Shown piece after piece: positions 4,252 to 44,955 of a stretch of 45,907 nt of DNA. The stretch spans positions 1 through 45,907 of the IMG/VR virus record IMGVR_UViG_3300032304_001403; one strand, written 5' to 3'. The position numbers and the translations under genes were made by a program. Source of the stretch: a virus. Under the pieces are notes generated by a model, which worked only from the letters and a program-made list of their open reading frames with translations, did no database searches and was not told where the DNA came from. Each line of letters begins with the position of its first letter. Position 1 is the stretch's first letter.

Positions 4252-4258
4252 ATAAATA
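4252..4258 (+). promoter_or_regulatory. Late promoter box, leaderless geometry
   Basis: ATAAATA ends exactly 5 nt before the ATG at 4264. In T4 the late box TATAAATA occupies about -13 to -6, so +1 would be the A of ATG. There is no Shine-Dalgarno site in the gap. It sits directly after a terminator, as expected for a new transcription unit. Confidence 0.75.
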
Positions 4259-4263
4259 TTTGT

Positions 4264-5388
4264 ATGGCAAATAAATTCACAAGATATCTATCAGAATTCG
4301 GATCCGGCTTGATCGAAGGGTTGACTAAACCCAAAGGTCAAATGGCAGACTATCGCCACGCTACTAGATTATTTGTAGACAATGGCCTGCGACTATCTCC
4401 TAAGACTAAATTTTTGTTTTATGTGAGATTTGAGTTCGACAACACTGTTAGAGGCATGAGTCAGTTCACTGCCAAACATCAAAACGAAGCAGGCCTATTA
4501 GTAAAGTCTGTGGACCTACCAAAATTTAATTTTGATTCTGTGATAAAGAATCAATATAATCGTAAAAAAATCTTATACAAGCAAATCAATTATGATCCTG
4601 TAAACATCACTATGCATGACGACAGCAATGCAGTGATTAATGCCATGTGGGCCCTGTATTATGGTTATTACATAGCAGACAGACATTTACCCGATGCTGC
4701 ATACGGTGCCACACATCTAAGAGCAACCAGCACTCCTCAGGATAATTTTACCTACGGCATGGACAACAAGATATCTCCTCCTTTTTTCACGTCGGTGACT
4801 ATCTATACCATGAGTCGGCGACGATTTGTAGGATACACCTTAGTTAATCCTAGGATCAAAACATGGAGCCACGGTGATATGAATTATTCTGTGTCTGAGT
4901 TCAACGAAAGTACCATGACATTGGAATATGAAGCAGTGAAATACAGTACTGGAAATGTATCTGTAGGCACCCCTAAAGGGTTTGCAACTTTGCACTACGA
5001 TACTGTACCAAGTCCATTGAGTGTAGCAGGCGGTGGTGTTGCAACACTCACAGGACAGGGCGGGGTATTAGATGGTATACAGCAGATATTCGGTGAAGTA
5101 GGCTCTGGAGCCTCATTCAAAACTCCTGGAGGATTTTTAGGTACCGTGGCTAAAACTATAAACACTTATAAAAATTTCCAAGGACTGTCATCAGATCAAT
5201 TAGCCAGTGAGGCTGTCAACATTCTCAGTAACCCTGCTAACATCACAGCAGCAGCCAGTTCAGTTTCGGGATTAGTAGGGGCAAGGTTTCCAAAAAATTC
5301 CGGCACTGAAACTACGACAAAGGCCACACAAAAAAATGTGGTAAGTCGACCAGGTGGAATAGCATTCAATCAAGATGCAGGCAGATGA
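4264..5388 (+). CDS. Baseplate/tail-tube junction protein, gp48/gp54-like
   Basis: This 374-aa protein probably sits where the tail tube starts on the baseplate. It has tube-protein-like features: the LLVKSVDLPKFNFD segment (about 77-90), a QINYDPVNITMHDDSN segment (about 107-122) matching the strand pattern of tube proteins, and SRRRFVGYTLVNPRI at about 185-200. Its length is close to T4 gp48 (364 aa) and gp54 (320 aa), and the C-terminal third is Gly/Ser-rich. The sequence alone does not separate gp48 from gp54. It follows gp19 and has its own late-type promoter with no leader. Confidence 0.7.
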   Translation: MANKFTRYLSEFGSGLIEGLTKPKGQMADYRHATRLFVDNGLRLSPKTKFLFYVRFEFDNTVRGMSQFTAKHQNEAGLLVKSVDLPKFNFDSVIKNQYNRKKILYKQINYDPVNITMHDDSNAVINAMWALYYGYYIADRHLPDAAYGATHLRATSTPQDNFTYGMDNKISPPFFTSVTIYTMSRRRFVGYTLVNPRIKTWSHGDMNYSVSEFNESTMTLEYEAVKYSTGNVSVGTPKGFATLHYDTVPSPLSVAGGGVATLTGQGGVLDGIQQIFGEVGSGASFKTPGGFLGTVAKTINTYKNFQGLSSDQLASEAVNILSNPANITAAASSVSGLVGARFPKNSGTETTTKATQKNVVSRPGGIAFNQDAGR

Positions 5389-5403
5389 TTAAGAGGATAA
5401 CAT

Positions 5404-5769
5404 ATGGCTAGTAATTTACCAAGTAGTATTATAGAAGACAGCGCCGCAGGCACTAAATTGTATTTTGAACGATACGGTGAAACAGCCTTAGAATTTGGTG
5501 CCAACGACGTGACCGCCGCCGTGAGTTTTTTTCGTAAAGCAGGTTTCGATATTGATGCTGCCAATACTTCTGCGATGATACTGTTGAGACAGGCCAAGAT
5601 TGACGGTACACCCATTGGTCAAATATTGGGCGTTTTTAAAAATTACTCATCCGCAGAACTAAATGAAATTGTTATAGAAATACTTAACAATAATCGCGTG
5701 CCAACTTCACTGTTGGGATTTAGAACACAAGATGTTAAACCTAATCAACTTAGAAACATAGCCGCATAA
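5404..5769 (+). CDS. Conserved phage protein of unknown function
   Basis: This is a 121-aa soluble, mostly helical protein of unknown function. It starts 15 nt after the tube-junction gene with an AGAGGA ribosome site 6 nt before the ATG. Its stop overlaps the gp4 start by one base. Similar small proteins occur near virion genes in marine T4-like phages (from memory, not checked). Position between tail and head-completion genes suggests a minor virion or assembly role. No catalytic motif or membrane segment is visible. Confidence 0.6.
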   Translation: MASNLPSSIIEDSAAGTKLYFERYGETALEFGANDVTAAVSFFRKAGFDIDAANTSAMILLRQAKIDGTPIGQILGVFKNYSSAELNEIVIEILNNNRVPTSLLGFRTQDVKPNQLRNIAA

Positions 5770-6209
5770 TGCCTAAATTTGCACAGGGACGATTTGAAAT
5801 GAAAAACCCCAGCAAGTATGTGGGTAAAAAAACTCCGTTGTCTCGCAGCTCGTGGGAATTTGTGTTCATGCGCATGTTAGATGAGCATCCCGGTGTAGAA
5901 AATTGGGCCAGTGAAAGTATACAGATTCCGTATCGTGATCCACTTACTGGCAAGTACACCATATATGTTCCGGATTTTTTCATTGTATACAAAGACAAAA
6001 TTGGCAAAAAACATGCAGAAGTAGTAGAAGTTAAACCACAGAGTCAAACTCTACGGGAATCAGTAGGTAAAAGCAGATACAATCAAGAACAGTATATTAA
6101 AAATATGGCCAAATGGGAAGCTGCAACTGCTTGGTGCAAGCAACAGGGAATTAGATTTCGAGTGGTAAACGAAGGCGATATTTTCCATCAAGGCGCTAAA
6201 CGGAAATAA
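5769..6209 (+). CDS. 4: Head completion protein, gp4-like (gp50/65)
   Basis: This gp4-type protein of 146 aa is close to T4 gp4 (about 150 aa). In T4 gp4 is needed to finish packaged heads before tails join. It has the TnsA/PD-(D/E)xK-like core: an SSWEFVFMRMLDEHPGVENW helix near residues 25-45, then YIPY...TIYVPDFFI (D at about residue 68) and EVVEVKP (E and K near 83-88), which fits the PD...ExK nuclease pattern. It is translationally coupled to the gene before it and lies 7 nt before the small-terminase gene. Confidence 0.8.
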   Translation: MPKFAQGRFEMKNPSKYVGKKTPLSRSSWEFVFMRMLDEHPGVENWASESIQIPYRDPLTGKYTIYVPDFFIVYKDKIGKKHAEVVEVKPQSQTLRESVGKSRYNQEQYIKNMAKWEAATAWCKQQGIRFRVVNEGDIFHQGAKRK

Positions 6210-6216
6210 GTAATGT

Positions 6217-6687
6217 ATGACCAAAAAATTAGAAGACCTGTTTGATCTCGAATCTCAATCTGAGCCAGTCCCACAGCCAGTTCCTGTTCACGAAGAAATC
6301 ACTAGTCTTGATGATCAATATCAAGCAGTGCAAAAGATAGTACAGACACTGCCACAGATACAAGAACTAGATAATCTCGACGAACAAGAACTAGATAATC
6401 TTGCCAAAAAATCAGAGAAAGCCTACGACGAGCTTATGGATCTAGGAATGAATGTAGAAGTGAGATATTCAGGTAGGATATTTGAAGTAGCTAGCTCAAT
6501 GATGGGCAACGCTATCACTGCTAAAAGTAATAAGATAGAAAAGAAACTCAAGGCAGTGGATCTACAATTGAAAAAACTGAAAATAGACAACGATGCAGGG
6601 GTTGATTCTAACAATGTGATCAACGGGCAGGGCTATGTGATTACAGATCGCAATGAGCTGCTGAAAAAATTAAGCGGAAAAGCATAA
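6217..6687 (+). CDS. 16: Terminase small subunit, gp16-like
   Basis: This is the probable small terminase, which forms the ring that regulates the gp17 packaging motor. At 156 aa it is near T4 gp16 (164 aa). It has an acidic N-terminus (LEDLFDLESQ), two predicted helices in the middle with a VRYSGRIFEVASSMMGNAITAKSN segment (about 82-108) typical of phage gp16, then a Lys-rich coiled segment. The neighbours gp4 and gp17 support the call. No clear Shine-Dalgarno site precedes it, so it may be translated by coupling. Confidence 0.72.
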   Translation: MTKKLEDLFDLESQSEPVPQPVPVHEEITSLDDQYQAVQKIVQTLPQIQELDNLDEQELDNLAKKSEKAYDELMDLGMNVEVRYSGRIFEVASSMMGNAITAKSNKIEKKLKAVDLQLKKLKIDNDAGVDSNNVINGQGYVITDRNELLKKLSGKA

Positions 6688-6690
6688 ATA
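6684..6690 (+). promoter_or_regulatory. Late promoter box, leaderless geometry
   Basis: ATAAATA overlaps the TAA stop of the gp16-like gene and ends exactly 5 nt before the ATG at 6696, with no Shine-Dalgarno site between. Predicted +1 is the A of the start codon. Confidence 0.72.
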
Positions 6691-6695
6691 CTCAT

Positions 6696-7262
6696 ATGAA
6701 AACTTTTAAAGAATATCTCGTCGAAAACAAAAAAATCTACAGCTTCAAGATCAAAGTTGCGGGCGATGTTCCTGAAAAATTCCAAGAAGCACTAAAATCA
6801 CGCTTGGATAGCTGCAAGGTCATGACCTTTGAAAAACTCATGACCACTCCTATTCAGAAGCTGCCTCTGGATTTTCCAGGCAAAGAGAATATGCAGGTCA
6901 CTGTGTTTGAGGTAGTTTGTGAATATCCTACAACACCTCCTGAAATCGCCACACATGTCAAAGCCATGGGCATAGACGAAGACTGTTTTCGTGTAAGGAA
7001 CAGCAGTGAACCCACAGAAGCAGATCAAGTGTTGCTGGACAACGAACCCAGCGGTGAAGCTATGTTAGATGAACAGGACATGGATAAAAATGTCGGTAAA
7101 ATCAAACACAAAGATTATTTTGGTGACGACTTCAACAAGGGATTTCTAAAAGATCTAGACAAGGCTGCAAAGACACGCAAGAAGGACGGAGTGCAGACAG
7201 AATATAAGCTGCCTAAGGCCAAAACAGATAAAGTCGGTGCTAAAAGCGCCTTAGGGAGTTAA
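6696..7262 (+). CDS. Probable prohead core protein with capsid-targeting N-terminus
   Basis: This 188-aa protein is of unknown exact function. Its first ten residues, MKTFKEYLVE, match the T4 internal-protein capsid-targeting sequence MKTYQEFIAE in pattern, including the LxE that fits cleavage by the gp21 prohead protease. That suggests it enters the prohead and is trimmed. The middle (about 15-95) looks like an alpha/beta domain with KIYSFKIKVAGDVPEKF; the C-terminal half is acidic then Lys-rich (DDFNKGFLKDLDKAAKTRKK). It lies between the small and large terminase genes and has its own late-type promoter. The targeting role is inferred from the motif. Confidence 0.6.
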   Translation: MKTFKEYLVENKKIYSFKIKVAGDVPEKFQEALKSRLDSCKVMTFEKLMTTPIQKLPLDFPGKENMQVTVFEVVCEYPTTPPEIATHVKAMGIDEDCFRVRNSSEPTEADQVLLDNEPSGEAMLDEQDMDKNVGKIKHKDYFGDDFNKGFLKDLDKAAKTRKKDGVQTEYKLPKAKTDKVGAKSALGS

Positions 7263-7265
7263 TAA

Positions 7266-7982
7266 ATGAATTTCAATGATTTAATGCAGAAAATGAGAGA
7301 GCTGGATCAGCCAGTTGTACAGGCCGAAGCATGTGGCGATCCAATGCCACCTATGCCACCGATGTCTAGCCCTATGAGTACAAAGCCAGATACTCCTCCA
7401 CCTAGTCTTAGTATCAATCTAAATGCTCAGGGCATGGACAACATCGAAAGCATCATGAAGCTGATGACCAAAGTCAATCCAGATATGATCAATCAACCAC
7501 CGAGCATGCCTATGAGCATGCCTATTAGTATTTCTAAACCGTCGCCTATCAGCATGGGGCCGTTGGGAAATCTAGATGCTGGTCCTTTGAAGATGTTGCC
7601 AGACATGGACAGTGATAACGATGACATGCCAGGTGACAAAATGAATCTACCACCAGATCACGATAAAGATCACGCTATGGTTAAAGCATTAGATAAGGAT
7701 GACGACGGCGATCATGATATGGATGATCACGATATTGAAAAGAAAGACAAAGAAGAAGCGTTTGGCAACAGTTTAAATGGATCAGAACCAGAGTATGCAG
7801 ACATAAGTGCTGCCATACCAGACGGTAACGATATGCATAAGCCTAAGAAAAGCTTCAGCGGTAAGCCTTATCGCGGTGATAATCCCATGGCAGCTGGCGC
7901 TTATGAAAGCAAAGATCAACTACGTGCCAGTATACGAGAAGAACTTCTTCAGAGATTGGCAGAAGCTAAAGGAGCGAAATAA
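7266..7982 (+). CDS. Met/Pro-rich acidic protein, possible prohead scaffold component
   Basis: This 238-aa protein of unknown function has low-complexity composition. Residues 25-50 and 75-100 are Met/Pro/Ser-rich (PMPPMPPM), residues 115-165 are strongly Asp/Glu/Lys-rich with His, and the C-terminus is an amphipathic helix (LRASIREELLQRLAEAKGAK). Disordered acidic proteins with a helical tail are common in phage cores and scaffolds. It has GGGAG upstream, and its stop overlaps the next ATG. No enzyme motif is seen. Confidence 0.55.
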   Translation: MNFNDLMQKMRELDQPVVQAEACGDPMPPMPPMSSPMSTKPDTPPPSLSINLNAQGMDNIESIMKLMTKVNPDMINQPPSMPMSMPISISKPSPISMGPLGNLDAGPLKMLPDMDSDNDDMPGDKMNLPPDHDKDHAMVKALDKDDDGDHDMDDHDIEKKDKEEAFGNSLNGSEPEYADISAAIPDGNDMHKPKKSFSGKPYRGDNPMAAGAYESKDQLRASIREELLQRLAEAKGAK

Positions 7983-8638
7983 TGTCAGGATTTAAAATTT
8001 CAACTGAGTCACTAAGACCAGAATTTTATCAAGTAGTAATTACATTATCTGGTGGTGCAGGCACATATCCTACAGCAGACGGCAACGATAACGGAGCAGT
8101 ATGCCCACAAGATCACAGCGCATTTGCTACCAAGCCAACCACATTGGCAATTGGTCGTCGTGTGGCTAGAGGTCATCAACGTTTCTTGGCCATTGTGGAA
8201 AATCTACAAAAATATGCTGATGCACAAATTCAAGACGTGCAGTTTACCAGTGCCGGTGTAACAGTAGCAGCTAATCAAGCAACAGCAGTTACATTTACAG
8301 TGCGGTATGATAGAGGCGGTAATGCAGATGCAACCACAGCCTCCACACTAGATAATCTAATCTTAGCAGGAACTAGATTAGAAATAGGAACCCCATTCCA
8401 ATTTACAGCTACCACAGACGGTACAATTACAGTTGATACAACAGCCAAAGCTCTGCGCTATCAAGTTGCGCAGGCCATTGGAAGAACCAATCATGTTAAA
8501 AGCATGAGAGTGTATGATGGCAGTCAAGGTGCCGAAATTCAAGAATCGTTGACTGTCACATTGCCCGACTCACTTGCAGATATTTACAAAGATGTGGCTG
8601 TGACACTGGTTGATGCAGCAGAAACCATAGACAGTTAA
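7982..8638 (+). CDS. Probable virion structural protein
   Basis: This 218-aa protein is rich in Thr, Ala and Val with alternating hydrophobic strands, for example VQFTSAGVTVAANQATAVTFTVRYDRGG, suggesting a beta-sandwich head or neck decoration protein. It has no recognised family. AAAGGAG precedes the ATG, which overlaps the previous stop. A strong terminator follows, so it ends the unit that begins at 6696. Confidence 0.5.
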   Translation: MSGFKISTESLRPEFYQVVITLSGGAGTYPTADGNDNGAVCPQDHSAFATKPTTLAIGRRVARGHQRFLAIVENLQKYADAQIQDVQFTSAGVTVAANQATAVTFTVRYDRGGNADATTASTLDNLILAGTRLEIGTPFQFTATTDGTITVDTTAKALRYQVAQAIGRTNHVKSMRVYDGSQGAEIQESLTVTLPDSLADIYKDVAVTLVDAAETIDS

Positions 8639-8654
8639 TACAAACTTACAAACC

Positions 8655-8682
8655 AAATAGGCTCTTCGGAGCCTATTTTTTT
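8655..8682 (+). terminator. Rho-independent terminator with TTCG loop
   Basis: A 10-bp perfect stem AAATAGGCTC/GAGCCTATTT closes on a TTCG tetraloop and is followed by Ts. It separates the structural gene from gp17. Confidence 0.93.
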
Positions 8683-8684
8683 CA

Positions 8685-8691
8685 GTAAATA
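8685..8691 (+). promoter_or_regulatory. Late promoter box of the large terminase gene, leaderless geometry
   Basis: GTAAATA ends exactly 5 nt before the gp17 ATG at 8697 and only 2 nt after the T tract of the preceding terminator. There is no Shine-Dalgarno site in between. Confidence 0.65.
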
Positions 8692-8696
8692 AACAT

Positions 8697-10283
8697 ATGT
8701 CAAAATCCTTAGACGGCAATCTAATTAAGAAAGCCCATGCACAGATACGATATAATCTCGATGAAGTCAAGCATCTAGAAGCCTGCATGGATCCAGTTAG
8801 CGGTCCGTTATACTTTGCCAAAAACTTTATCAAGATACAACATCCTACCCGAGGATCGATACCGTTCGAACCCTACGGATTTCAAGAACTGCTGATTAAC
8901 GCATATCACACAAACAAAGAATGCATAGCCATGCTGCCACGACAGATGGGCAAGACCACATGTGCAGTAGCGTACCTACTATGGTATACTCAGTTCATGC
9001 CAGATGTGCAGGTGTTGATCGCTGCACACAAGTATGAAGGTGCTCGGGACATCATGGATCGTTATAGATATGCCTATGAAAATTTACCAGATTTCATTCG
9101 AGCTGGGGTGTATTCATACAACAGAAATACCATCGAATACGACAACGGATCACGTATACAAGCAACCACCACAACTGAAAACACAGGACGTGGTAAATCT
9201 CTTTCATTGATATATTGTGATGAGTTTGCGTTTGTGCAACCACCAGAAAAAGCCAAAGAGTTCTGGACAGCGTTATCGCCAACATTGGCCACAGGCGGTA
9301 AAGCTATTATCACATCGACACCTAACAGTGATGAAGATCAATTTGCCATGATTTGGTTAGAAGCCAACAAGAGATTTGATGACTTCGGCAATGAAACTAA
9401 ACTAGGTGTTAACGGATTTTTCCCCTTCTTTGCACATTGGAAGGAACATCCAGACAGAGATGAAGAATGGGCTAGATTAGAACGGGCCAAGATCGGCGAA
9501 GAACGATTCCGTAGAGAGTTTGAATGTGAATTCTTGATCTATGACGAAACTCTAATCAACTCTGTGAAGTTAGTTGAACTTGCGGGCATGGATCCCATAA
9601 TGAATATGGGGCAGACACGTTGGTACAAAGAAATAAATCCTAAAGCTACATATCTAATAGCTCTCGATCCCAGCTTGGGCACAGGCGGAGACTACGGCGC
9701 CATACAAGTCTATGAAATGCCTGAAATGGTACAAGTGGCAGAGTGGCATCACAATACCACTCCTGTGCAGCAACAGGTCAGAGTCTTGAGAGAAATACTA
9801 AAATACATTCATGACAGAGGCGAAGAACGAGGCGGTGCACCCATCATATATTACAGTGTTGAAAACAACACCATAGGCGAATCTGCTCTGATAGTGATCA
9901 ACGACATAGGCGAAGAAAACTTTCATGGCCTGTTTCTAAGTGAGCCTATACGCAAAGGACACATACGCAAGTTCCGTAAAGGATTTAATACCACGCATAG
10001 AAGTAAGATATCCGCTTGCAGCCAGCTAAAAAACATGATCGAAAATCACAAGATGACCATCAACAGCAAACCGTTAATATCTGAGCTAAAAACATACATT
10101 GCGTCGGGACTGGGCTTTAAAGCTAAGAGCGGAGAACATGACGATTTAGTCAGTTCAACACTGCTGATTATGCGCATGGCGGATGTATTGGCAGATTGGG
10201 ATCCGCAGATCTACGACAGGATGACAGAAAAAATAACTGATGAATCCATGCCTATGCCGATCTTTGTCAGTATGGGTCTTTGA
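8697..10283 (+). CDS. 17: Terminase large subunit, gp17-like
   Basis: This is the packaging ATPase and headful nuclease. At 528 aa it is somewhat shorter than T4 gp17 (610 aa). The ATPase domain shows a Walker A variant MLPRQMGKTT (about 79-88), Walker B LIYCDEF (about 171-177) and the coupling motif ITSTPN (about 205). The RNase-H-like nuclease domain shows YLIALDPSLGTGGDYGA (about 322), a YYSVENN strand (acidic residue near 384) and EHDDLVSS (about 480). All key motifs are present. It begins directly after a terminator with its own late-type box. Confidence 0.96.
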   Translation: MSKSLDGNLIKKAHAQIRYNLDEVKHLEACMDPVSGPLYFAKNFIKIQHPTRGSIPFEPYGFQELLINAYHTNKECIAMLPRQMGKTTCAVAYLLWYTQFMPDVQVLIAAHKYEGARDIMDRYRYAYENLPDFIRAGVYSYNRNTIEYDNGSRIQATTTTENTGRGKSLSLIYCDEFAFVQPPEKAKEFWTALSPTLATGGKAIITSTPNSDEDQFAMIWLEANKRFDDFGNETKLGVNGFFPFFAHWKEHPDRDEEWARLERAKIGEERFRREFECEFLIYDETLINSVKLVELAGMDPIMNMGQTRWYKEINPKATYLIALDPSLGTGGDYGAIQVYEMPEMVQVAEWHHNTTPVQQQVRVLREILKYIHDRGEERGGAPIIYYSVENNTIGESALIVINDIGEENFHGLFLSEPIRKGHIRKFRKGFNTTHRSKISACSQLKNMIENHKMTINSKPLISELKTYIASGLGFKAKSGEHDDLVSSTLLIMRMADVLADWDPQIYDRMTEKITDESMPMPIFVSMGL

Positions 10284-10289
10284 TAAATA
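10283..10289 (+). promoter_or_regulatory. Late promoter box, leaderless geometry
   Basis: ATAAATA starts on the last base of the gp17 stop codon and ends exactly 5 nt before the ATG at 10295. The geometry argues for that ATG rather than an in-frame TTG at 10280, which lies upstream of the box. Confidence 0.72.
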
Positions 10290-10294
10290 TACTT

Positions 10295-12178
10295 ATGGAC
10301 GCAACAAACAATATAGCCACCGATTTATTCTATAAAGTACGCAGCCGCTTCGCTGGGTTGAAACTAGGCGCAGAAACCGGTGAGATCACTATCAATCCGG
10401 AACAGGCAAGATTTTTTGATTTTGACTACACAGAGGGCGAAACTCCTATGGGTCATGTCAGTATTAGCCTTGCAGAACCTAACAGTATGAAAGTGTATTT
10501 TTCAAACGGAATCACCGAAGCTATGGATGACGGGCAGAAAACAAGTTGGTACAGCTTCTTGAAAGAACTACGACTATTTGCCAAACGAAGATTGTTGAGT
10601 TTTGACACTAGAGACATCGCCAAAGATAATTTGGATAAAAGAGATTACGAGTTTCTCAGTCAAAATGCAAAACCTAAACCACAGATGAATAAAATTCAAA
10701 CCCCAGTTGGAGAAAGCACAATGAGTGAAAACATGATGAGTGAAAGCTCGATGTACGGTAGCAAAACAATGAGCTATCAAAAATTAATGGACACACGTTT
10801 AATTATTAAACACAGCCATGCAGTAATGGATGACACACAACCGGGTGCCAGAACAAGAAATATCAGTGCATTATTTGTAGAGAATCAAGACGGCGAAAGA
10901 TTTAAATATCCTTTTATTCATCTAGCTGGAGCTCGAGCCATGCAACGACACGTGGCTAACGGCGGTCTGCCTTATGATGAAATAGGCGAAAGTATTACTA
11001 AAATGAGTGAAGAAATTGCTCAGCTTAAAAGTTTCGGCAACTATGTAGTACGCAATGACCTAATGAATTCAGAAACAAATTCAGTTGTAGAACGTTCTTC
11101 CGAATACTTAAATCATCTCAGAGAACAGATCAAGGCTCTAAGCAAACAACGCAACTATGAATCCTATAGAGAATCATTTCAGGCAAACCCCAATCAAGAA
11201 ATTCCTCAAGATGTAGTTGAAGATTTCAAACAAAAATTTACAGTTAGATCGTTCAAAGAAGATATCGCAACTGTGTTTCCGGTCTTGTACAGACTGATGA
11301 AAGAAGGAAATACCATAGGCTATGACGACATAGTCGCTATGACACAAGAAGAAATCAGCAACGAAGACCTTACGGTTGAAACAGAAGACAATGACCTATT
11401 TGCTCAATTTGAGAATTGGGTAATGGCGCTAGGCGAAGAAAGTGCAGTGACCAGTGAAGATCCTGACGAACAGGCAGCAGCACTACAAGGACTACAAGAA
11501 CTAGTAGGACAACACTTTCCAGCAGGCGTCGATGGAACTAATGCCATTGAAAGTCTTAAAGGCCTAATTGAAGATCCTGAACTATACAAGCGAATCAAAG
11601 AACAGGCAGCGCAAGATCCAGATGCATGTGTAAGACCATTGATCAAAGACTGGCTTGAACTCAACGCACCTGAAGCATTAGAACAGTTAGATTTTGGTGA
11701 CATGGTGGATGACCAGGAAGCAGCCCAGGCAGATGACCAAACTGCTCCCGAAGCGGAACCGGCACCGGCTGAACCAGTAGCAGCGGCTGTACCTGCAGAA
11801 GAACCAGTACCGCAGGAAGCCATTGACCCTGATAATCCTAGAGATTATGAGAGGCCAGCGATTGACCGCAAGAAATCAGGCCAACCACCGTTGACTATGA
11901 AAGATGTAGAATACAAAGACGACAAGCCCAAACGTGATTTTGAAAAAAGAAAACAAAGGCTCAATACCGAAGAATTAGCAGAATTCATTCACAGTTTCTA
12001 TGATCGTAATTCAGGCACATTCCCCAAAGGTCCAGAAGGCGTTTGCACAATGGTAGGCAAGAAGTTTGGCGAACAGGCAGAACACGTTGCTCGTAAGATG
12101 GTAGAAAGAATGGCCCCACAACAACAAGCACCAGAACTATCAGAATTATCACGTATTAGAGAACTAGCAGGTTATTAA
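10295..12178 (+). CDS. Large acidic protein of unknown function, probable virion or core component
   Basis: This 627-aa protein is not recognised as a T4 gene product. Parts visible are an N-terminal region with FDFDYTEGETPMGHVSISL (about 35-60); a central mixed region including TRNISALFVENQDGERFKYPFIHLAGARAMQRH (about 185-220); an acidic Ala/Pro/Glu linker (about 475-520); and a C-terminal helical module (LNTEELAEFIHSFYDRNSGTFPKG and AEHVARKMVERM, about 560-610). I place it in the packaging group because it follows gp17 and ends at a strong terminator. No catalytic motif was identified. The ATG at 10295 was chosen because the promoter box ends 5 nt before it. Confidence 0.6.
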   Translation: MDATNNIATDLFYKVRSRFAGLKLGAETGEITINPEQARFFDFDYTEGETPMGHVSISLAEPNSMKVYFSNGITEAMDDGQKTSWYSFLKELRLFAKRRLLSFDTRDIAKDNLDKRDYEFLSQNAKPKPQMNKIQTPVGESTMSENMMSESSMYGSKTMSYQKLMDTRLIIKHSHAVMDDTQPGARTRNISALFVENQDGERFKYPFIHLAGARAMQRHVANGGLPYDEIGESITKMSEEIAQLKSFGNYVVRNDLMNSETNSVVERSSEYLNHLREQIKALSKQRNYESYRESFQANPNQEIPQDVVEDFKQKFTVRSFKEDIATVFPVLYRLMKEGNTIGYDDIVAMTQEEISNEDLTVETEDNDLFAQFENWVMALGEESAVTSEDPDEQAAALQGLQELVGQHFPAGVDGTNAIESLKGLIEDPELYKRIKEQAAQDPDACVRPLIKDWLELNAPEALEQLDFGDMVDDQEAAQADDQTAPEAEPAPAEPVAAAVPAEEPVPQEAIDPDNPRDYERPAIDRKKSGQPPLTMKDVEYKDDKPKRDFEKRKQRLNTEELAEFIHSFYDRNSGTFPKGPEGVCTMVGKKFGEQAEHVARKMVERMAPQQQAPELSELSRIRELAGY

Positions 12179-12200
12179 TAAGTTTCGTCGCAGTTAGATC

Positions 12201-12224
12201 GGGCACTTCGGTGCCCTTTCTTTT
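12201..12224 (+). terminator. Rho-independent terminator with TTCG loop
   Basis: The stem GGGCAC/GTGCCC closes on TTCG and is followed by TTTCTTTT. It ends the packaging block before gp32. Confidence 0.92.
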
Positions 12225-12257
12225 GGCAAAACAAAATTAAAAATACGTAGATAATCA

Positions 12258-12286
12258 TTGACCTTGATAAATAAAAAGCGCATAAT
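12258..12286 (+). promoter_or_regulatory. Composite gp32 promoter: sigma70 pair with a late box in its spacer
   Basis: TTGACC (12258-12263) and CATAAT (12281-12286) are 17 bp apart, giving a good sigma70 promoter. The spacer contains ATAAATA (12267-12273), a T4-late-type box. Early/middle and late polymerase forms could both drive gp32, with +1 near 12293 or 12279. Confidence 0.6.
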
Positions 12287-12300
12287 AAAACATGTGCATA

Positions 12301-12338
12301 AGGCATATAAACATTTTAGGCATAACACAAGGAGGCAT
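12301..12338 (+). repeat. Three AGGCAT repeats in the gp32 leader
   Basis: AGGCAT occurs at 12301, 12318 and 12333; the third overlaps the Shine-Dalgarno site AAGGAGG (12329-12335). Regular spacing of 17 and 15 nt in an unstructured AU-rich leader suggests an operator, by analogy with T4 gp32 repressing its own translation. The analogy is inference. Confidence 0.45.
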
Positions 12339-12343
12339 TTAAA

Positions 12344-13324
12344 ATGGCAACTCTCGCAGAAATCCGTGCTAAACTTCAAGAAGCACAATCAAAGTCCACA
12401 GGACAATCCACTGGCGGTGGAGACAACGCAATTTACCCACACTGGAATATGCAAGAAGGCAAGGAAGCGGTTATTCGTTTGCTACCCGATGGTAATACCA
12501 ACAACACATTTTTCTGGGTAGAACGTGCAATGATTAAATTGCCGTTTGCAGGTATCAAAGGTGAAACTGATTCACGTCCAGTGCAGGTACAAGTTCCCTG
12601 CGTTGAAATGTACAACGACGGTACAGCATGCCCTATCTTATCTGAGGTGCGTGGCTGGTTCAAGGACAAGAGTCTTGAAGAAATGGGTCGTAAGTATTGG
12701 AAGAAGCGTAGTTATATTTTCCAAGGTTTTGTTGTTGAAGATCCTATCAAAGAAGATAAGATTCCAGAAAACCCAATCCGTAGATTTATCATCGGACCTC
12801 AAATTTATCAACTAATTCGCGGTGCGTTGATGGATCCAGAATTAGATGAATTGCCAACAGACTATTTGAAAGGTCTTGACTTCCGTATTGCTAAGACATC
12901 AAAAGGTGGCTTTGCTGATTACTCTACTTCAAAGTGGAGCCGACGTGAACGTGCATTGTCAGATCAAGAAAAGGCAGCTATCGAAGCACATGGCTTGTTT
13001 GATCTTTCTAGCTTCCTTCCAAAGAAACCAAGCGATGTTGAGCTTAAGGTTATGAAGGAAATGTTTGAAGCTTCAGTTGATGGTGAAGCATATGACATGG
13101 ATCGTTGGGGTCAATACTTCAAACCAGCAGGTATGGGTCAAGCAACAGGCGATCCTAATAGACCAGCAGCAGCAGCCGTTCCTGCAGCAGAAGCAGACGA
13201 TGAGCCAGCTCCGATGGCTAAAGAAGAAACTGCAAAAACAGTTTCAGCACCAGCAGCCAATACTGACTCTGCTAGTCGTGCGCAAGACATTCTTGCCATG
13301 ATTCGCAATCGTCAAAAGCAATAA
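12344..13324 (+). CDS. 32: Single-stranded DNA-binding protein, gp32-like
   Basis: This is the T4-type ssDNA-binding protein that coats replication and recombination intermediates. The 326-aa length is close to T4 gp32 (301). It has the basic N-terminal LAEIRAKLQEAQSK region, then the OB-fold core (HWNMQEGKEAVIRLLPDG near 33-50; FFWVERAMIKLPFAGIKG near 56-73) and an acidic Ala/Glu C-terminal tail used for protein contacts. The zinc-loop spacing C-x9-C (PCVEMYNDGTACP, about residues 86-96) matches T4 C77 and C87, but the third Cys position holds Leu, so the zinc site looks incomplete. A strong AAGGAGG site sets the start. Confidence 0.92.
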   Translation: MATLAEIRAKLQEAQSKSTGQSTGGGDNAIYPHWNMQEGKEAVIRLLPDGNTNNTFFWVERAMIKLPFAGIKGETDSRPVQVQVPCVEMYNDGTACPILSEVRGWFKDKSLEEMGRKYWKKRSYIFQGFVVEDPIKEDKIPENPIRRFIIGPQIYQLIRGALMDPELDELPTDYLKGLDFRIAKTSKGGFADYSTSKWSRRERALSDQEKAAIEAHGLFDLSSFLPKKPSDVELKVMKEMFEASVDGEAYDMDRWGQYFKPAGMGQATGDPNRPAAAAVPAAEADDEPAPMAKEETAKTVSAPAANTDSASRAQDILAMIRNRQKQ

Positions 13325-13338
13325 GACTAAACTAGAGT

Positions 13339-13363
13339 AGTGCGAGCAGGTCTCGCACTCTCT
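13339..13363 (+). terminator. Hairpin terminator after gp32
   Basis: The stem AGTGCGAG/CTCGCACT with a 5-nt loop is followed by CTCTTT. The pyrimidine tail is weaker than in the other terminators, so it may be partial. Confidence 0.7.
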
Positions 13364-13384
13364 TTCATATCTCTGGAGAAAAAT

Positions 13385-13585
13385 ATGGTAAATATGGCAA
13401 AACTAACTAAACTATCGAAAGTAAATGAAAACATCAGTATCAATCGTTACGACAACGGTTGGATGGTAGAAATTGGTGGACGAGATAAAAAAGAAGATTG
13501 GAAAAATACCAAAACTCTTTGCAATACTGAAGAAGAACTTATTGCATTAATCAAAGAATACAATTCAATGGATCTCGACAACTGA
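13385..13585 (+). CDS. Small conserved protein of unknown function
   Basis: This 66-aa protein lies between gp32 and uvsX. The ATG at 13385 has GGAG 6 nt upstream; an open frame extending back to 13340 would run through the gp32 terminator hairpin and is rejected. It contains a short beta hairpin pattern (ISINRYDNGWMVEIGGRDKKEDW) and an acidic C-terminal helix (TEEELIALIKEYNSMD). It is unrecognised, with a possible replication accessory role from position only. Confidence 0.6.
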   Translation: MVNMAKLTKLSKVNENISINRYDNGWMVEIGGRDKKEDWKNTKTLCNTEEELIALIKEYNSMDLDN

Positions 13586-13586
13586 T

Positions 13587-15352: not shown

Positions 15353-15369
15353 GTATTTTTATAATATAC

Positions 15370-20975: not shown

Positions 20976-20977
20976 TA

Positions 20978-29973: not shown

Positions 29974-29977
29974 AATC

Positions 29978-30016: not shown

Positions 30017-30023
30017 CAACATT

Positions 30024-30873: not shown

Positions 30874-30879
30874 TGAATA

Positions 30880-36883: not shown

Positions 36884-37077
36884 CAACAGAAAACAAAGAA
36901 GAATTTATTTCCAATGATGACATTGAAATCGAGGTTATGAGTACCGAAGAAGATTCACAACATTGTGTATACGTTAAATTTTCAAACTTTGCCGAAGCCG
37001 AAGATGCTGACGAATACGCTGAATTTCTAGCTGAAACATTACCTCTGTTATTGTTTGAAACTACAAGGATGCAATAA
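36880..37077 (+). CDS. Small acidic protein of unknown function
   Basis: This 65-aa acidic protein starts with GTG (GTGA overlap with the previous stop). It contains DIEIEVMSTEED and NFAEAEDADEYAEFLAETLPLL. Its stop overlaps the next ATG. Unrecognised; possible small partner of the DnaE-like protein that follows. Confidence 0.5.
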   Translation: MTTENKEEFISNDDIEIEVMSTEEDSQHCVYVKFSNFAEAEDADEYAEFLAETLPLLLFETTRMQ

Positions 37078-37655
37078 TGCCTGATATTGATATAGACTTT
37101 ATAGACAGAGATGCTGCATTGAAATTATTTAAACATATCCCTGCTAGTCGCGTTGATAACAATCGATTGACCAAACACAACACTGGGGTTTATCTACATA
37201 ATGTACCAATGAATGCTGTAGAAGCTGTTTGTAGTATACCCTATGATCATGCAGAAGCAGAAGAATATTTCAAGATTGATTTTTTAAATGTTGGAATTTA
37301 CAAAGGTGTTCGAGATGAGGCACACCTTATTCAACTCATGGAGACTGAGCCATTATGGGATCTATTACAAGACAACGATTTTGTTCAGAATCTGTTTCAT
37401 GTGAACGGACATGGATCTATACTAAGAAAGATGGAACCAAAATCTATCGAACAACTAGCAGCCGTTTTAGCGATGATTCGACCCGCGAAACGTTATCTGA
37501 TTGGGAAAGAATGGACCACTGTGATGAAGGAAGTTTGGACGAAACCTGACAATGAAGAATACTTCTTCAAGCAATCGCATGCTACTGCGTATGCTATGGC
37601 CATTGTGGTGCAGATGAATTTGATCTGTGAGCAGATCAGTTACGGGTATAGTTAA
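37077..37655 (+). CDS. Miniature DnaE (Pol III alpha) core-like protein
   Basis: This 192-aa protein carries, in order, the conserved motifs of bacterial DNA polymerase III alpha but little else: PDIDIDF at residues 2-8 (aligning with catalytic D401 and D403 of E. coli DnaE), KHNTGVYL (about 33-40; DnaE HAAGVVI), YFKIDFLNVGI (D68 aligning with D555), ETEPLWDLL, EQLAAVLAMIRPAKR (DnaE ALxRPG) and FFKQSHATAYAMAI (DnaE NKSHAAAYAL). All three catalytic Asp positions remain. PHP, fingers and C-terminal domains are absent. Whether it polymerises is unknown. It ends 4 nt into a convergent gene. Confidence 0.65.
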   Translation: MPDIDIDFIDRDAALKLFKHIPASRVDNNRLTKHNTGVYLHNVPMNAVEAVCSIPYDHAEAEEYFKIDFLNVGIYKGVRDEAHLIQLMETEPLWDLLQDNDFVQNLFHVNGHGSILRKMEPKSIEQLAAVLAMIRPAKRYLIGKEWTTVMKEVWTKPDNEEYFFKQSHATAYAMAIVVQMNLICEQISYGYS

Positions 37656-38023
37656 CCTATTTTTCTAACCAAGGTGATCGACTTACGTTTGATTCTTTTG
37701 ACAATGATGTCGTTGAGGCTGGTACAGGGACCATGCACTAGTTTAACATCTTTGGTTGAAAAATTCTTGATCACATATCTAAAATTAAAGATCTCACGTG
37801 CCAGAAAAATATTGATGGGAATTTGTCTATTTGATTCCCACCACCATGCTTCACCTAATTCTAAAAATCGTTTTTTTTCCTCGTCTGTTTTTATCATGGA
37901 GTAGTCATACATACTAGTGACCTGGGCATCTTGGTTGATAATGATTCCCACGTATTCGTGGCTAACATGCACTATAACGCTGATAAAAGGGAAATTTTCT
38001 TGTAGGTTAGTTGTTATTCTCAT
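37652..38023 (-). CDS. Conserved phage protein of unknown function
   Basis: This 123-aa protein includes LELGEAWWWESNRQIPINIFL (about 55-75), a segment recalled from marine T4-like phages. It is convergent with the mini-DnaE gene, the two stops overlapping on TTAA. The late box for the plus-strand gene 38055 sits just upstream. Function unknown. Confidence 0.5.
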   Translation of the reverse strand: MRITTNLQENFPFISVIVHVSHEYVGIIINQDAQVTSMYDYSMIKTDEEKKRFLELGEAWWWESNRQIPINIFLAREIFNFRYVIKNFSTKDVKLVHGPCTSLNDIIVKRIKRKSITLVRKIG

Positions 38024-38026
38024 TCG

Positions 38027-38033
38027 ATAAATA
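38027..38033 (+). promoter_or_regulatory. Late-type promoter box of the 360-aa structural gene
   Basis: ATAAATA with +1 near 38039 leaves a 16-nt leader containing AAAGG 11 nt before the ATG at 38055. It lies immediately upstream of a divergently oriented gene. Confidence 0.5.
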
Positions 38034-38054
38034 CTGCTAAAGGTCCGTTAGTGT

Positions 38055-39137
38055 ATGCAATTTAATCCTGTTTATTTATATGTCAACAAACTCGATGTAT
38101 TTACCACCCCAACGGACACTTGGTCAACTGAGAGGTATCGCAGAGTGTATAACAGAAATCTAAAAATATTCCGTGGTGTTGATAATCGCATCGACATTCA
38201 GGTCCGTAACAGTGATCAAAAGGCCAGCAACATCGCGGGCAGCACTTTGGTATTTAATCTCGTAAGCCAGGACACTAAAGATTTAATACTACAGAAAGAC
38301 TTCACAGCTATGGATCTTGCCACAGGCAAGGTCACTGTAATCGTAACCGCTGAAGAACTGTTGGATCTTGATATAGGTTTCTATAACTACAGCATAGTCA
38401 AAGAAGTTCGGTCTACTGTAGACAGCACAGATTACACAGTGACTTCTAAAATGCCGTTGTACATGGACAGTCAATATGACACAGTAGGCACACTAGAAAT
38501 CACTGGGGATGTGTATGGTGGAGTAGCAGACAGCGTGGTCGTGGACGCATTCAACTATACCAACCCATTTACTCAAGGTGCTATTGATCCTGCACCATTC
38601 TATACCAGTTCTATTATAGATGCCCGCCCAAAAAATTCTCCGGCTTATCCTATACACACATTTCAATTTTACTCTACCAATTACAAAGGTACGGTAGAGA
38701 TACAGGCCAGTTTAGACGATCAAGGAGCCACTCCAAGAGAAACCAAATGGATCACTGTATCTACTGTAGATCTTGCTACCGAACAGTACAAAAATATAAC
38801 TGGCAAGTATAATTGGTTTAGAATCAAACATACCCCGGGCAGTGTTTCCAGTATCGCCAGATTTACTATAGCGCAAACTATGTTACTAACATATAATGTT
38901 ACTATAGGCAATATCGGTAAAGGTTATAATGTAGGTGACATTATTGTAATCACCGGTAATAGATTGGGCGGAGAATTAGTGACCAACGATTTAACTATCA
39001 CTGTTTCTGCTGTGAATGCAGACGGCGGCATTACCGGATTTTCATATACAGGCCTTTCCTATAATGGAGTCAAAACATTTGTGTTAGATGACTCTAATAT
39101 TTCAGTTGGAACCGTTGACAAGATACTGTATAGATAG
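38055..39137 (+). CDS. Probable baseplate or fibre structural protein
   Basis: This 360-aa beta-rich protein has an N-terminal region (about 30-110) with the pattern of phage baseplate upper proteins: FRGVDNRIDIQVRNSDQKASNIAGSTLVFNLVSQDTKD, then a TGKVTVIVTAEELLDLDIGFYNYSIV hairpin. The rest consists of beta-sandwich-like repeats (GDIIVITGN, NDLTITVSAVNADGGITGFSYTGL). It has its own late-type promoter and precedes primase. A distal-tail or fibre role is inferred. Confidence 0.55.
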   Translation: MQFNPVYLYVNKLDVFTTPTDTWSTERYRRVYNRNLKIFRGVDNRIDIQVRNSDQKASNIAGSTLVFNLVSQDTKDLILQKDFTAMDLATGKVTVIVTAEELLDLDIGFYNYSIVKEVRSTVDSTDYTVTSKMPLYMDSQYDTVGTLEITGDVYGGVADSVVVDAFNYTNPFTQGAIDPAPFYTSSIIDARPKNSPAYPIHTFQFYSTNYKGTVEIQASLDDQGATPRETKWITVSTVDLATEQYKNITGKYNWFRIKHTPGSVSSIARFTIAQTMLLTYNVTIGNIGKGYNVGDIIVITGNRLGGELVTNDLTITVSAVNADGGITGFSYTGLSYNGVKTFVLDDSNISVGTVDKILYR

Positions 39138-39143
39138 TATACT
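39115..39143 (+). promoter_or_regulatory. Consensus sigma70 promoter of the primase gene, leaderless geometry
   Basis: TTGACA (39115-39120) and TATACT (39138-39143) are 17 bp apart. Exactly 6 nt separate the -10 from the ATG at 39150. The -35 lies inside the end of the structural gene, and the -10 follows its TAG stop. Confidence 0.82.
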
Positions 39144-39149
39144 TGTAGT

Positions 39150-40169
39150 ATGACTCTTGTCGTTGATAAATTTCGAACACTGCTCCCACCTCGTGCTAAA
39201 TCCAGCCCATCAGGTTGGACATCATTTAATGCACCTTGCTGTCAACATAGAGGACACAGTCCAGACACTCGCAAACGTGCCGGCATAAGATTCGACGGCA
39301 ACGGAGTGGTCTATAACTGCTTTAATTGCAAGTTTACTACTGGGTGGCAACCTGGTAGTACCATAGGCGAGAAGATGAAAACGCTGTGTAGGTGGTTAGG
39401 AGCCAGCGAGGATACCATCAAAGAACTTGTATTTGAAGCAATGAAAACAGAAGGTGATGACTACCGTCCAGAACATCACGAAACTAAACTAGAGTTTACA
39501 AACAAAGAACTACCAGAAGGTGCAATGCCTTTGTTAGAATGGGTGAACAGTAAATACTGGAAAGATATATCTTCAGAAGTAGAGATCGTGATTGCCTATG
39601 TTGTGAGTAGGGGATATGATCCGTTTGATGGAAACTTCTATTGGTCGCCTGCCTCTGGGTACGAACACCGTGTGATTATTCCGTTTAAGTGGGAAGGACG
39701 AGTTGTAGGTAATACTGCAAGGAAAGTAACCTCCGGCAAACCTAAATATCTATCGGATCAACATTCTCATTTTGTTTTCAACTTCGATCGACAAAAAGAA
39801 AATCAGAAGTATATATTCGTATGTGAAGGTCCATTTGACGCCCTGGCCATCGACGGTGTAGCACTGCTCACTAATGAGATTGCTGAACAACAAAGCAGAA
39901 TAATCAATAGTCTAGGTGCTGAAGTTATTGTTATTCCCGATCAAGATCGAGCAGGGGTAGTGTTATTTGATCGTGCAGCAGAACTTGGGTGGGCAGTGGC
40001 CATGCCAAATTGGGATGCTGATGTAAAAGATGTAGCAGATGCGGTATGTCGATATGGAAAGCTGTTTGTGCTAGTAGATGCAATAAAAACAGCACAACAA
40101 GGACAGATTAAAATTAATATGGCTAAGAAACAACAAGAACATAAATTAGAGAGGTTAGAAAATGTTTAA
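39150..40169 (+). CDS. 61: DNA primase, gp61-like
   Basis: This is the RNA-primer-synthesis primase, partner of the gp41 helicase. It has an N-terminal zinc-binding region (APCCQHRGHS near 28-37 and NCFNCKF near 56-62), and a TOPRIM domain with YIFVCEGPFDALAIDG (acidic Glu, about 222-237), VIVIPDQDRAG (DxD-type, about 258-268). The 339-aa length equals T4 gp61 (342). Its stop overlaps a small gene that leads into the carbamoyltransferase and helicase genes. Confidence 0.92.
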   Translation: MTLVVDKFRTLLPPRAKSSPSGWTSFNAPCCQHRGHSPDTRKRAGIRFDGNGVVYNCFNCKFTTGWQPGSTIGEKMKTLCRWLGASEDTIKELVFEAMKTEGDDYRPEHHETKLEFTNKELPEGAMPLLEWVNSKYWKDISSEVEIVIAYVVSRGYDPFDGNFYWSPASGYEHRVIIPFKWEGRVVGNTARKVTSGKPKYLSDQHSHFVFNFDRQKENQKYIFVCEGPFDALAIDGVALLTNEIAEQQSRIINSLGAEVIVIPDQDRAGVVLFDRAAELGWAVAMPNWDADVKDVADAVCRYGKLFVLVDAIKTAQQGQIKINMAKKQQEHKLERLENV

Positions 40170-43982: not shown

Positions 43983-44677
43983 TCGTTTCTAACGCCAAAT
44001 AATGATAATAGATTGATAAAGATGTTGATGAAGTTCATGTACAGACTCAATGCACCTGATATCTCCACAGCGTCTGTGGTATCCACAGAAATCATTTCAC
44101 GTATGCGTTGCGTGTCGTAGGCAGTCAATCCCAAGAATATAATAATAGCCAGGGCTGAGATCACAGTGGCCATCACACTAGAGCCAATAAAGATGTTGAC
44201 GATGCTGGCTATGACAATGGCAATCAATCCTATGAACATAAACTGCCCTAGGCTCTCTAGACTGCGTTTGGTAAAGTAACCATAGCCGCTCATCACAGCA
44301 AACAGTATGGCTGCACCCATGAATGCACTCACAATCGATCCCATGGTAAACACTGCAAAGATCATTGCAAAGCTGAGTCCCATCAAGGCAGCAAAACCAT
44401 GTAGACATAGCTGTGCAACACCTTTACTGGGATTAGTACCCAATACGTAACTGATGCCAAAGATCGCAGCCAAAGGTGCAAAGATCACGATCCATTTTAA
44501 CACACCAGTGAAAAAGAACTGTACGAGTTCTGGTGTTGTGCCTACCCAATAACTGACCAACATAGATACCAAGACTGCTAGACTCATGTGTGCATACACC
44601 CGGCCCATGGCTGCGTTGATGTCAGCAGCTGAACGATAGGCCAAGGTGCCTTGATCTGAATAATTTACTCCAAACAT
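43979..44677 (-). CDS. Bax-inhibitor-1 family membrane protein
   Basis: This 232-aa protein has seven predicted hydrophobic membrane segments and belongs to the TMBIM/YccA family: a soluble N-terminus (YSDQGTLAYRSAADINAAMGRVYAHM), then HMSLAVLVSMLVSYWVG, and the family-typical segments LGLTAYDTQRIREM (Asp in the last loops; about 190-203) and ALSLYMNFINIFINLLSLFG at the C-terminus. Bacterial members are inner-membrane proteins; a role in modulating calcium or protease activity is suggested for the family. It is probably of bacterial origin. Own sigma70 promoter and AAGGAG site. Confidence 0.88.
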   Translation of the reverse strand: MFGVNYSDQGTLAYRSAADINAAMGRVYAHMSLAVLVSMLVSYWVGTTPELVQFFFTGVLKWIVIFAPLAAIFGISYVLGTNPSKGVAQLCLHGFAALMGLSFAMIFAVFTMGSIVSAFMGAAILFAVMSGYGYFTKRSLESLGQFMFIGLIAIVIASIVNIFIGSSVMATVISALAIIIFLGLTAYDTQRIREMISVDTTDAVEISGALSLYMNFINIFINLLSLFGVRND

Positions 44678-44704
44678 TGTATACTCCTTGTGGTTAGATA
44701 TTTA

Positions 44705-44733
44705 ATTATACAGTGTAATTCATCAAAGGTCAA
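44705..44733 (-). promoter_or_regulatory. Strong sigma70 promoter of the Bax-inhibitor gene
   Basis: On the minus strand, TTGACC (44733-44728) and TATAAT (44710-44705) have a 17-bp spacer. +1 is near 44698, with AAGGAG (44689-44684) six nt from the ATG. An overlapping ATTAAATA next to the -10 could serve late transcription. Unlike the leaderless units, this has an ordinary 21-nt leader. Confidence 0.75.
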
Positions 44734-44943
44734 CTAGCTGCGTTCGCTGGGTGTGTATAATTTCACAAAGCCCTGCCATTCTGCACCAGTTCTAGCAGTC
44801 ATGCGATCAGCCAACTGCCGAGCCATGTCCTCAGCCAAAATCCTTTGTTTCTGGGTGAATCTTGTGCCAGTGAGATCCTGGGATTTGATGGTTTGCCCGG
44901 TGACTGTGCTACGGGCCATGGGTAATAGATATTGTTCGCTCAT
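44734..44943 (-). CDS. Small basic conserved protein
   Basis: This 69-aa protein is unrecognised; it begins MSEQYLLPMARSTVTGQ and has an Arg/Gln-rich helical middle (RFTQKQRILAEDMARQLADRM). Start at 44943 is chosen over an upstream in-frame ATG at 44973 because the late box lies between them, 5 nt from the chosen ATG. It may be a small virion or regulatory protein. Confidence 0.55.
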   Translation of the reverse strand: MSEQYLLPMARSTVTGQTIKSQDLTGTRFTQKQRILAEDMARQLADRMTARTGAEWQGFVKLYTPSERS

Positions 44944-44948
44944 GAAAA

Positions 44949-44955
44949 TATTTAT
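44949..44955 (-). promoter_or_regulatory. Late promoter box, leaderless geometry (minus strand)
   Basis: On the minus strand ATAAATA ends exactly 5 nt before the ATG at 44943. It is the only minus-strand member of the leaderless set and shows the geometry is not a strand artefact. Confidence 0.68.

Follow-up and report, generated by a model that had tools for sequence, protein, structure and literature searches.

The window analysed here is the whole of a 45.9-kb linear virus record (45,907 nt; IMG/VR record IMGVR_UViG_3300032304_001403), whose source, judged from its relatives, is a T4-like phage of the jumbo type. Among its proteins are a tail sheath, a tube protein, a head closure protein, the large terminase, gp32-like, UvsX-like and UvsY-like proteins, a helicase, a primase and a replicative helicase. 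An earlier note on this DNA had claimed that six late-promoter boxes (ATAAATA or GTAAATA) each end exactly 5 nt before an ATG, and that the late mRNAs lack a leader. We found all six boxes and start codons at the positions claimed, with a gap of exactly 5 nt in each case, and the promoter geometry described below makes it very probable that these late boxes are positioned for transcription to begin on the A of the start codon, giving leaderless mRNAs. The boxes, the hairpins next to them and one contrasting arrangement are:

11–49 (+): contrasting arrangement at the tail sheath gene (start 50), where 33 nt containing AGGAG separate the late box TAAATA (11–16) from the start
4218–4242 (+): terminator hairpin and T tract, directly before the box at 4252
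4252–4258 (+): late box ATAAATA, 5 nt before ATG 4264 of a second tail-tube-like protein gene (4264–5388)
6684–6690 (+): late box ATAAATA, 5 nt before ATG 6696 of a gene (6696–7262) with a weak virion structural family match
8655–8678 (+): terminator hairpin, directly before the terminase box
8685–8691 (+): late box GTAAATA, 5 nt before ATG 8697 of the large terminase gene (8697–10283)
10283–10289 (+): late box ATAAATA, 5 nt before ATG 10295 of a virion structural protein gene (10295–12178)
15374–15380 (+): late box ATAAATA, 5 nt before ATG 15386 of a nucleotidyltransferase-like gene (15386–16150)
44949–44955 (−): late box ATAAATA, 5 nt before ATG 44943 of a 69-aa gene (44734–44943) with no family match

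The six start codons also lack a Shine-Dalgarno (SD) site, as had been claimed. None of seven box-adjacent starts in the window (these six and a start at 42878, 4 nt from its box) showed SD pairing at −4.5 kcal/mol or better, which was reached by 45% of the 44 other first-ATG starts. The statement that several boxes directly follow terminators held for two of the six (the hairpins at 4218–4242 and 8655–8678) and not for the remaining boxes; the hairpin scan covered positions 1–16200 of the window, and a second, cruder terminator test was also used. The TAA of the box doubles as the stop codon of the upstream gene in two of the six cases, the box at 6684 (stop of gene 6217–6687) and the box at 44955 (−). 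The six-case spacing had been called unlikely by chance, and we agree: 7 of the 19 RTAAATA motifs in the window end exactly 5 nt before an ATG (binomial P 4e-8, or about 1e-6 once corrected for 31 distances). The motif itself is not in excess (19 observed, 25.5 expected from shuffles). The seventh case, at 26141 (−), lies out of frame within the open reading frame (ORF) 25906–26484 (−) and is probably a chance occurrence. At 42878 the ATG stands 4 nt after TAAATA and overlaps the end of the upstream gene, a layout also observed in the relative G001, and translational coupling is equally possible for this start. Boxes on both strands were also observed between or near two divergent gene pairs (29973–30024 and 38023–38055); in the first pair, the leader of either gene contains the other gene's box in reverse complement, and both starts lack an SD site.

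Scanning IMG/VR for the terminase gave 427 stretches that encode it; we retained the best 80 as relatives. The closest were 98% identical to the window terminase, and three among the best 80 of 427 lay on contigs of 270–282 kb. The computational check that the earlier note had proposed, a count of boxes at each distance from start codons, was run on five longer relatives (G001–G005) and on control phages, and gave a sharp TAAATA peak 4–5 nt before start codons in the relatives and no peak at 5 nt in T4. In a scan of every hexamer at every distance across 940 mechanically called ORFs (G001, G002, G003), TAAATA at 5 nt was observed 38 times with 4.2 expected and ranked second of all hexamer-distance pairs, among SD words. 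Without annotation, an ATG followed TAAATA 54 times at 5 nt and 26 times at 4 nt, compared with 2–18 times at other distances up to 20. Counting any early ATG of a called gene, boxes at 4 and 5 nt numbered 1 and 6 in the window, 8 and 16 in G001, 5 and 17 in G002, 5 and 14 in G003, 4 and 9 in G004, and 1 and 10 in G005, while permuted control hexamers gave 0.1–1.3 at 5 nt. First-ATG counts at 5 nt reached 13 in G001, 11 in G003 and 11 in Pelagibacter phage HTVC008M, a phage of another lineage, against 0.50–0.74 per distance (P 1.7e-12 to 2.9e-10); these per-genome P values are not independent because the relatives are related to each other.

The same layout was not found at called starts in most of the cultured phages used for comparison. 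First-ATG counts at 5 nt were 0 in T4, 0 in CBB and 1 in PAC2, a phage of the PA5oct type. With any early ATG allowed, there were no boxes at 5 nt in T4, CBB, Syn9, S-PM2 or a 41.6-kb stretch of Sinorhizobium phage Phosso, and the two in PAC2 were at chance level (1.3 in the control). T4 boxes stood instead 21–30 nt before the start (31 cases). A general 5-nt layout in T4-like phages was rejected on its absence at called starts in T4, CBB, Syn9 and S-PM2. Raw counts of the pattern against its reversed form were 17/1, 19/2, 15/2, 12/2, 10/2 and 9/0 in six records of the clade (82 vs 9 in all). Among ten cultured phages they were near the control in most, HTVC008M excepted (10 vs 3): Atu_ph07 13 vs 8, PAC2 12 vs 10, T4 8 vs 5, S-PM2 5 vs 3, CBB 4 vs 8, Vibrio 2.275.O 3 vs 2, Syn9 2 vs 2, Phosso 2 vs 2 and KVP40 0 vs 2. 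Of these ten, the gene-anchored counts covered HTVC008M, PAC2, T4, S-PM2, CBB, Syn9 and the 41.6-kb stretch of Phosso.

The spacing was conserved among orthologs of the six window genes. Counting only entries with the start in view, from 80 loci and from five long records in which five of the same loci recur, a box stood 4–7 nt from the ATG in 313 of 315 entries, and the linkers varied. The distance was 5 nt in 53 of 54 orthologs of gene 4264 (4 nt in one), 61 of 64 of gene 6696 (7 nt in three), 76 of 80 of the terminase (4 nt in four, with 13 different linkers), and 67 of 73 of gene 10295 (4 nt in five, 7 nt in one). Gene 15386 had it in 39 of 41, the other two being without a box, and gene 44943 in all three in view. 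The terminator hairpin before the terminase box was kept, by eye, in 34 of 35 relatives, the remaining one being cut by the contig end; this upstream region was inspected for 35 of the 80 relatives and for Phosso. Other genes had a different, equally constant arrangement. All 33 sheath orthologs in view carried a box at 31–35 nt together with AGGAG, all 68 orthologs of the gp32-like gene had AGGAGG and no box within 45 nt, and an SD site was present at the capsid gene in G001–G003, HTVC008M and PAC2. In 18 relatives compared with the window, the terminase protein was conserved from residue 3 on and 142 of 269 changes fell at codon position 3, and the box-adjacent ATG is therefore the real start.

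The arrangement extended, in part, to more distant terminases. We took the best 80 of at least 600 relatives of the PAC2 terminase (53–60% identical to it) and allowed any in-frame upstream ATG. Thirty-seven had an in-frame ATG 4–7 nt after TAAATA, while an additional 20 had one exactly 5 nt after TAAGTA, so that the box was altered and the distance kept. In a quick tree of 78 terminases no fewer than 10 switches between the states were needed, of which well-supported branches force 7, and PAC2 was placed among rows of the leaderless type; the count of 10 is rough, as long branches meet in this tree. In HTVC008M a box stood at 5 nt for 11 of 107 deposited starts tested (two stretches with 108 of 198 features, one at the record start being skipped). 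The genes concerned include the tape measure, DNA end protector, head completion, tube cap, baseplate wedge and tail completion genes. Of 80 relatives of the HTVC008M tube cap, 59 contigs could be scored (itself included), and 56 of these kept the 5 nt, down to 41% identity; the remaining three, below 35% identity, had the box 21–26 nt upstream.

Several features of the box-adjacent starts resemble those of a transcription start. Of 77 ATG starts with a box at 5 nt (G001–G005 and HTVC008M), 70 had a pyrimidine at −1, compared with 42–52% of other starts, and the start codons at called box-adjacent genes were 77 ATG, 2 GTG and 1 TTG. Across the window, G001–G005 and HTVC008M, SD pairing of −4.5 kcal/mol or better was observed at 0–18% of box-adjacent starts, 33–66% of starts with a box and a leader, and 43–57% of other starts. 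The TAAATA hexamer was also found 14–40 nt upstream of SD starts in the same genomes. The −10-like box, TATAAATA or NNTAAATA, stands before late genes in the clade, and a homologue of the late sigma factor gp55 (phrog_234) was matched in G001–G003 (E about 1e-25), and also in PAC2, Phosso (where the match crosses a stop codon), G015, G016 and HTVC008M. It was not found in the 45.9-kb window, which is a fragment, nor in the fragmentary records G000, G009 and G010.

The claim of leaderless late mRNAs could be upheld for a subset of genes only. G001 contained 25 box-adjacent starts and 33 starts with a box and a leader, and other late genes, the sheath among them, combine a box with an SD leader. 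The proposal that all late genes are leaderless was thus rejected on the 33 box-with-leader starts of G001, the boxed SD leader of the sheath gene and the SD site of the capsid gene. The association of leaderless genes with low copy number is a tendency only: two baseplate hub genes of G001 have leaders, and no family match was obtained for 11 of 20 leaderless G001 proteins scanned.

A second class of promoters was placed in the same way. The 940-ORF scan returned TTGACA at 29 nt (12 vs 0.8 expected, the ninth-ranked pair) and TATAAT at 6 nt (14 vs 2.1), which we read as the −35 and −10 elements of sigma70 promoters set for a +1 on the A of ATG. Two such sites lie in the window:

30845–30882 (+): TTGACA-N17-TATACT-N6-ATG, putative sigma70-type promoter whose +1 would be the A of ATG 30880
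39115–39152 (+): TTGACA-N17-TATACT-N6-ATG, before the DNA primase gene (39150–40169)

The geometry at gene 30880 was kept in four of five orthologs, the G003 ortholog failing, and that at the primase in five of five, with four different linkers among them. A strict scan (TTGACA and TATAAT, one mismatch each, 17-nt spacer) gave gene-anchored ATGs at 6 nt in the window (2), G001 (5), G002 (10), G003 (4), G004 (3), G005 (4) and HTVC008M (1), and none in PAC2, T4, CBB, Syn9 or S-PM2. A looser scan, superseded by the stricter ones, had shown no more than a weak rise at 6 nt (38 vs 13–30). In PAC2 (131185–131322) an in-frame GTG was observed 6 nt from a TTGACA-N17-TATAAT promoter, 34 codons upstream of the annotated primase start. 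The added residues can be aligned to the window primase from about residue 14 on, and the PAC2 primase is probably annotated too short.

The placement of +1 on the A of ATG is argued for by the pyrimidine at −1, the near-exclusive use of ATG, the fixed spacing with variable linkers, the variant box that keeps its distance, and the second promoter class. In the mechanism that we propose, the boxes would act like T4 late promoters, serving as a −10-like element for RNA polymerase that bears a gp55-type sigma. This polymerase would start on the A of AUG, so that the mRNA begins 5'-AUG, and an assembled 70S ribosome with initiator tRNA would recognise the 5'-terminal AUG directly. Direct recognition of a 5'-terminal AUG by 70S ribosomes is established for leaderless mRNAs in Escherichia coli. 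Some sigma70-type promoters, e.g. that of the primase, would be placed likewise. The result would be a two-mode design, in which the nameable leaderless late genes include those for terminase, neck and baseplate, and the genes for sheath, tube, capsid and single-strand-binding protein keep SD sites. Such an arrangement would provide very compact promoters, and probably a low or late-tuned output, a translational setting for low-copy virion proteins. We infer the actual RNA 5' ends, 70S initiation and this purpose from the sequence.

Among other explanations, the one that best withstood the data is that the genes are co-transcribed from upstream and that the AU-rich box serves ribosome binding or coupling without an SD site and marks no transcription start. 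Proximity to an upstream gene speaks for it: of 112 box-adjacent starts, 46 have an upstream stop no more than 25 nt away, close enough for translational coupling to be possible, and among 83 starts at exactly 5 nt the TAA of the box ends the upstream gene in 12. Of the other 66 of the 112 starts, 21 come after a terminator and 45 are separated by more than 25 nt from any upstream same-strand stop. Coupling cannot explain the 21 starts directly behind a terminator, nor the 35 of 112 without a same-strand gene end within 100 nt. The promoter-like hexamer 14–40 nt upstream of SD starts in the same genomes and the matching placement of sigma70-type promoters also argue against co-transcription, which we consider improbable as a general account; coupling may contribute at the 46 starts close to an upstream stop. 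A related proposal, that the signal consists of the stop codons of upstream genes, was rejected on the figure of 12 in 83.

Less probable still is that the transcript starts near the ATG and translation begins at a later codon with its own SD site, giving a short-leader mRNA. This fits at least 4 of 28 sigma70-type sites, e.g. G002 70549 and 71528. Against it, at the late boxes, stand the conservation of the terminase from residue 3 with changes mostly at codon position 3, the conservation of the spacing to the box-adjacent ATG itself, and the deposited HTVC008M starts, which are the same ATGs. Chance, or the base composition of AT-rich intergenic DNA, is hardly credible: it agrees with the lack of RTAAATA enrichment in the window but is contradicted by the distance histograms, by the permuted hexamers and P values above (about 1e-6 for the window alone, down to 1.7e-12 per relative), and by the absence of the layout at called starts in T4 and CBB, both more AT-rich.

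Leaderless initiation from boxes that set +1 on the A of ATG must also be weighed against several observations that do not favour it. Besides the 46 starts close to an upstream stop, 23 of the 80 distant PAC2-terminase relatives had neither the TAAATA nor the TAAGTA arrangement. In ten further records, raw counts of DTAARTANNNNNATG exceeded the reversed-pattern control in nine and fell below it in one, and the record-wide signal was weak or absent in four (G007, 9 vs 5; G011, 4 vs 2; G012, 4 vs 3; G013, 2 vs 3). The annotation-free counts contained a bump of GTG 5 nt after TAAATA (14 vs 1–8 elsewhere) that is unexplained by called genes. For gp55 promoters the +1 distance is taken from T4, where the box covers about −13 to −6. 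A T4-type gp45 clamp (phrog_223) was unmatched in G000–G003 and PAC2, in a search with a single profile that a diverged clamp could escape; the same profile matched in HTVC008M. We did not file the clade as full members of the T4 system because no T4-type gp45 was found in G000–G003. For the sigma70-type class, at least 4 of the 28 clade ATGs at 6 nt have a second ATG with an SD site just downstream, CAT often stands at +1 of sigma70 sites and would favour an A there regardless of ATG, and the raw pattern with an ATG at 6 nt also occurs in PAC2 (2), S-PM2 (3), Syn9 (1) and HTVC008M (1), those in PAC2, S-PM2 and Syn9 never at a called start. Because of these downstream SD starts, the CAT at +1 and the raw pattern in PAC2, S-PM2 and Syn9, no more than a part of this class can be relied on. 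The view that all sigma70-type ATGs at 6 nt are starts was rejected, given the downstream SD starts at four or more of the 28.

A broader reading, towards which we lean slightly, is that a large share of uncultured T4-like phages use leaderless initiation as a regular mode of expression for particular genes, the position of the promoter then also setting translation to suit virion stoichiometry or the pool of ribosomes late in infection. The phages meant, with the same modest confidence, are PA5oct-like jumbo phages and HTVC008M-like pelagimyophages, in which late sigma and sigma70-type promoters would both be set to +1 on the A of AUG. The leaderless subset would plausibly be conserved and consist chiefly of low-copy virion parts, terminase and primase, with abundant virion proteins keeping SD leaders. 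The terminase, whose gene is essential for morphogenesis, appears to rely on leaderless translation, through a layout present in 80 of 80 ortholog entries despite linker change. For annotation, an ATG that follows a box by 4–5 nt can be a genuine start in such phages even where no SD site is present. HTVC008M is an isolated phage, which makes the efficiency and purpose of the leaderless route directly testable. A study of pelagimyophages describes late promoter prediction as unsuccessful with methods developed for cyanophages (PMC7029224), and leaderless placement is a possible reason for this failure.

Other features of the window and its relatives were observed alongside the promoters. A run of minus-strand genes (20193–29973) adjoins a nucleotide-sugar epimerase-like gene (20193–20975, −) and possibly serves surface polysaccharide synthesis; the only other gene scanned in this run (29575–29973, −) gave no family match. 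Positions 37077–37655 encode a 192-aa protein matching the DNA polymerase family phrog_11778, and genes named DNA polymerase III alpha occupy the counterpart position in PAC2 and Phosso. A cluster of 27 tRNA genes was found in G001 (265947–272250). G002 encodes a homologue of ribosomal protein S21 (15466–15624, −; E 4e-19), also found in PAC2 and Phosso and not found in six other records searched. The C-terminus of this protein is, we presume, Betaproteobacteria-like. An attempt to assign the host with it was unsuccessful, a scan of genome contigs giving two distant matches, 46% to a Rhodobacteraceae metagenome-assembled genome (MAG) and 41% to an unclassified MAG.

Leaderless genes, T4 late promoters and single leaderless phage mRNAs are already known. 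The last include lambda cI and the middle and late mRNAs of Thermus phage P23-45, which start at the start codon as proposed here, from different promoter systems in different hosts, and are not known to use gp55 promoters. The paper on phage AR9 describes phage transcripts as often leaderless and gives AR9's own leaders as 26–491 nt. We found no earlier account of T4-type late promoters placed for leaderless mRNAs in the part of the open-licence PMC literature that was covered. The clade shares with T4 late promoters (gp55/gp33/gp45) the box NNTAAATA, a gp55 homologue in the long relatives and use before structural genes, but T4 boxes stand mostly 21–30 nt before the start, with none at 4–6 nt; published accounts place the T4-type late box at the −10 position.

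CBB and GAP32 carry an ATAAATA late motif before structural genes and a gp55-like sigma, with gp45 and gp33 undetected by the authors (PMC5259590). The clade has the same motif, and no T4-type gp45 was found in G000–G003 or PAC2 either, but CBB has no boxes at 4–6 nt. The cyanophages S-PM2 and Syn9 use the late promoter NATAAATA (PMC2984593); their box is that of the clade, with none at 4–6 nt in either genome. The nearest cultured relatives are the Pseudomonas PA5oct group (Arenbergviridae; PAC2), alike in a terminase 54% identical to that of the window and in gene order, and Sinorhizobium phage Phosso, with a terminase 51% identical. The order from sheath to primase is common to the window and PAC2, and PAC2 falls among these phages, on a long branch, in the quick terminase tree. 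Unlike those of the clade, PAC2 boxes stand, by eye, before leaders (at 5 nt, 2 vs 1.3 in the control). In bacteria, leaderless genes are described as widespread without being dominant, and they have a TA-like signal some 10 bp ahead of the start (PMC3160421). The geometric argument and the lack of SD sites are common to those genes and ours; the promoters there are host promoters of bacterial genes, whereas here they would be mainly those of a phage late sigma, in a genome-wide phage layout.

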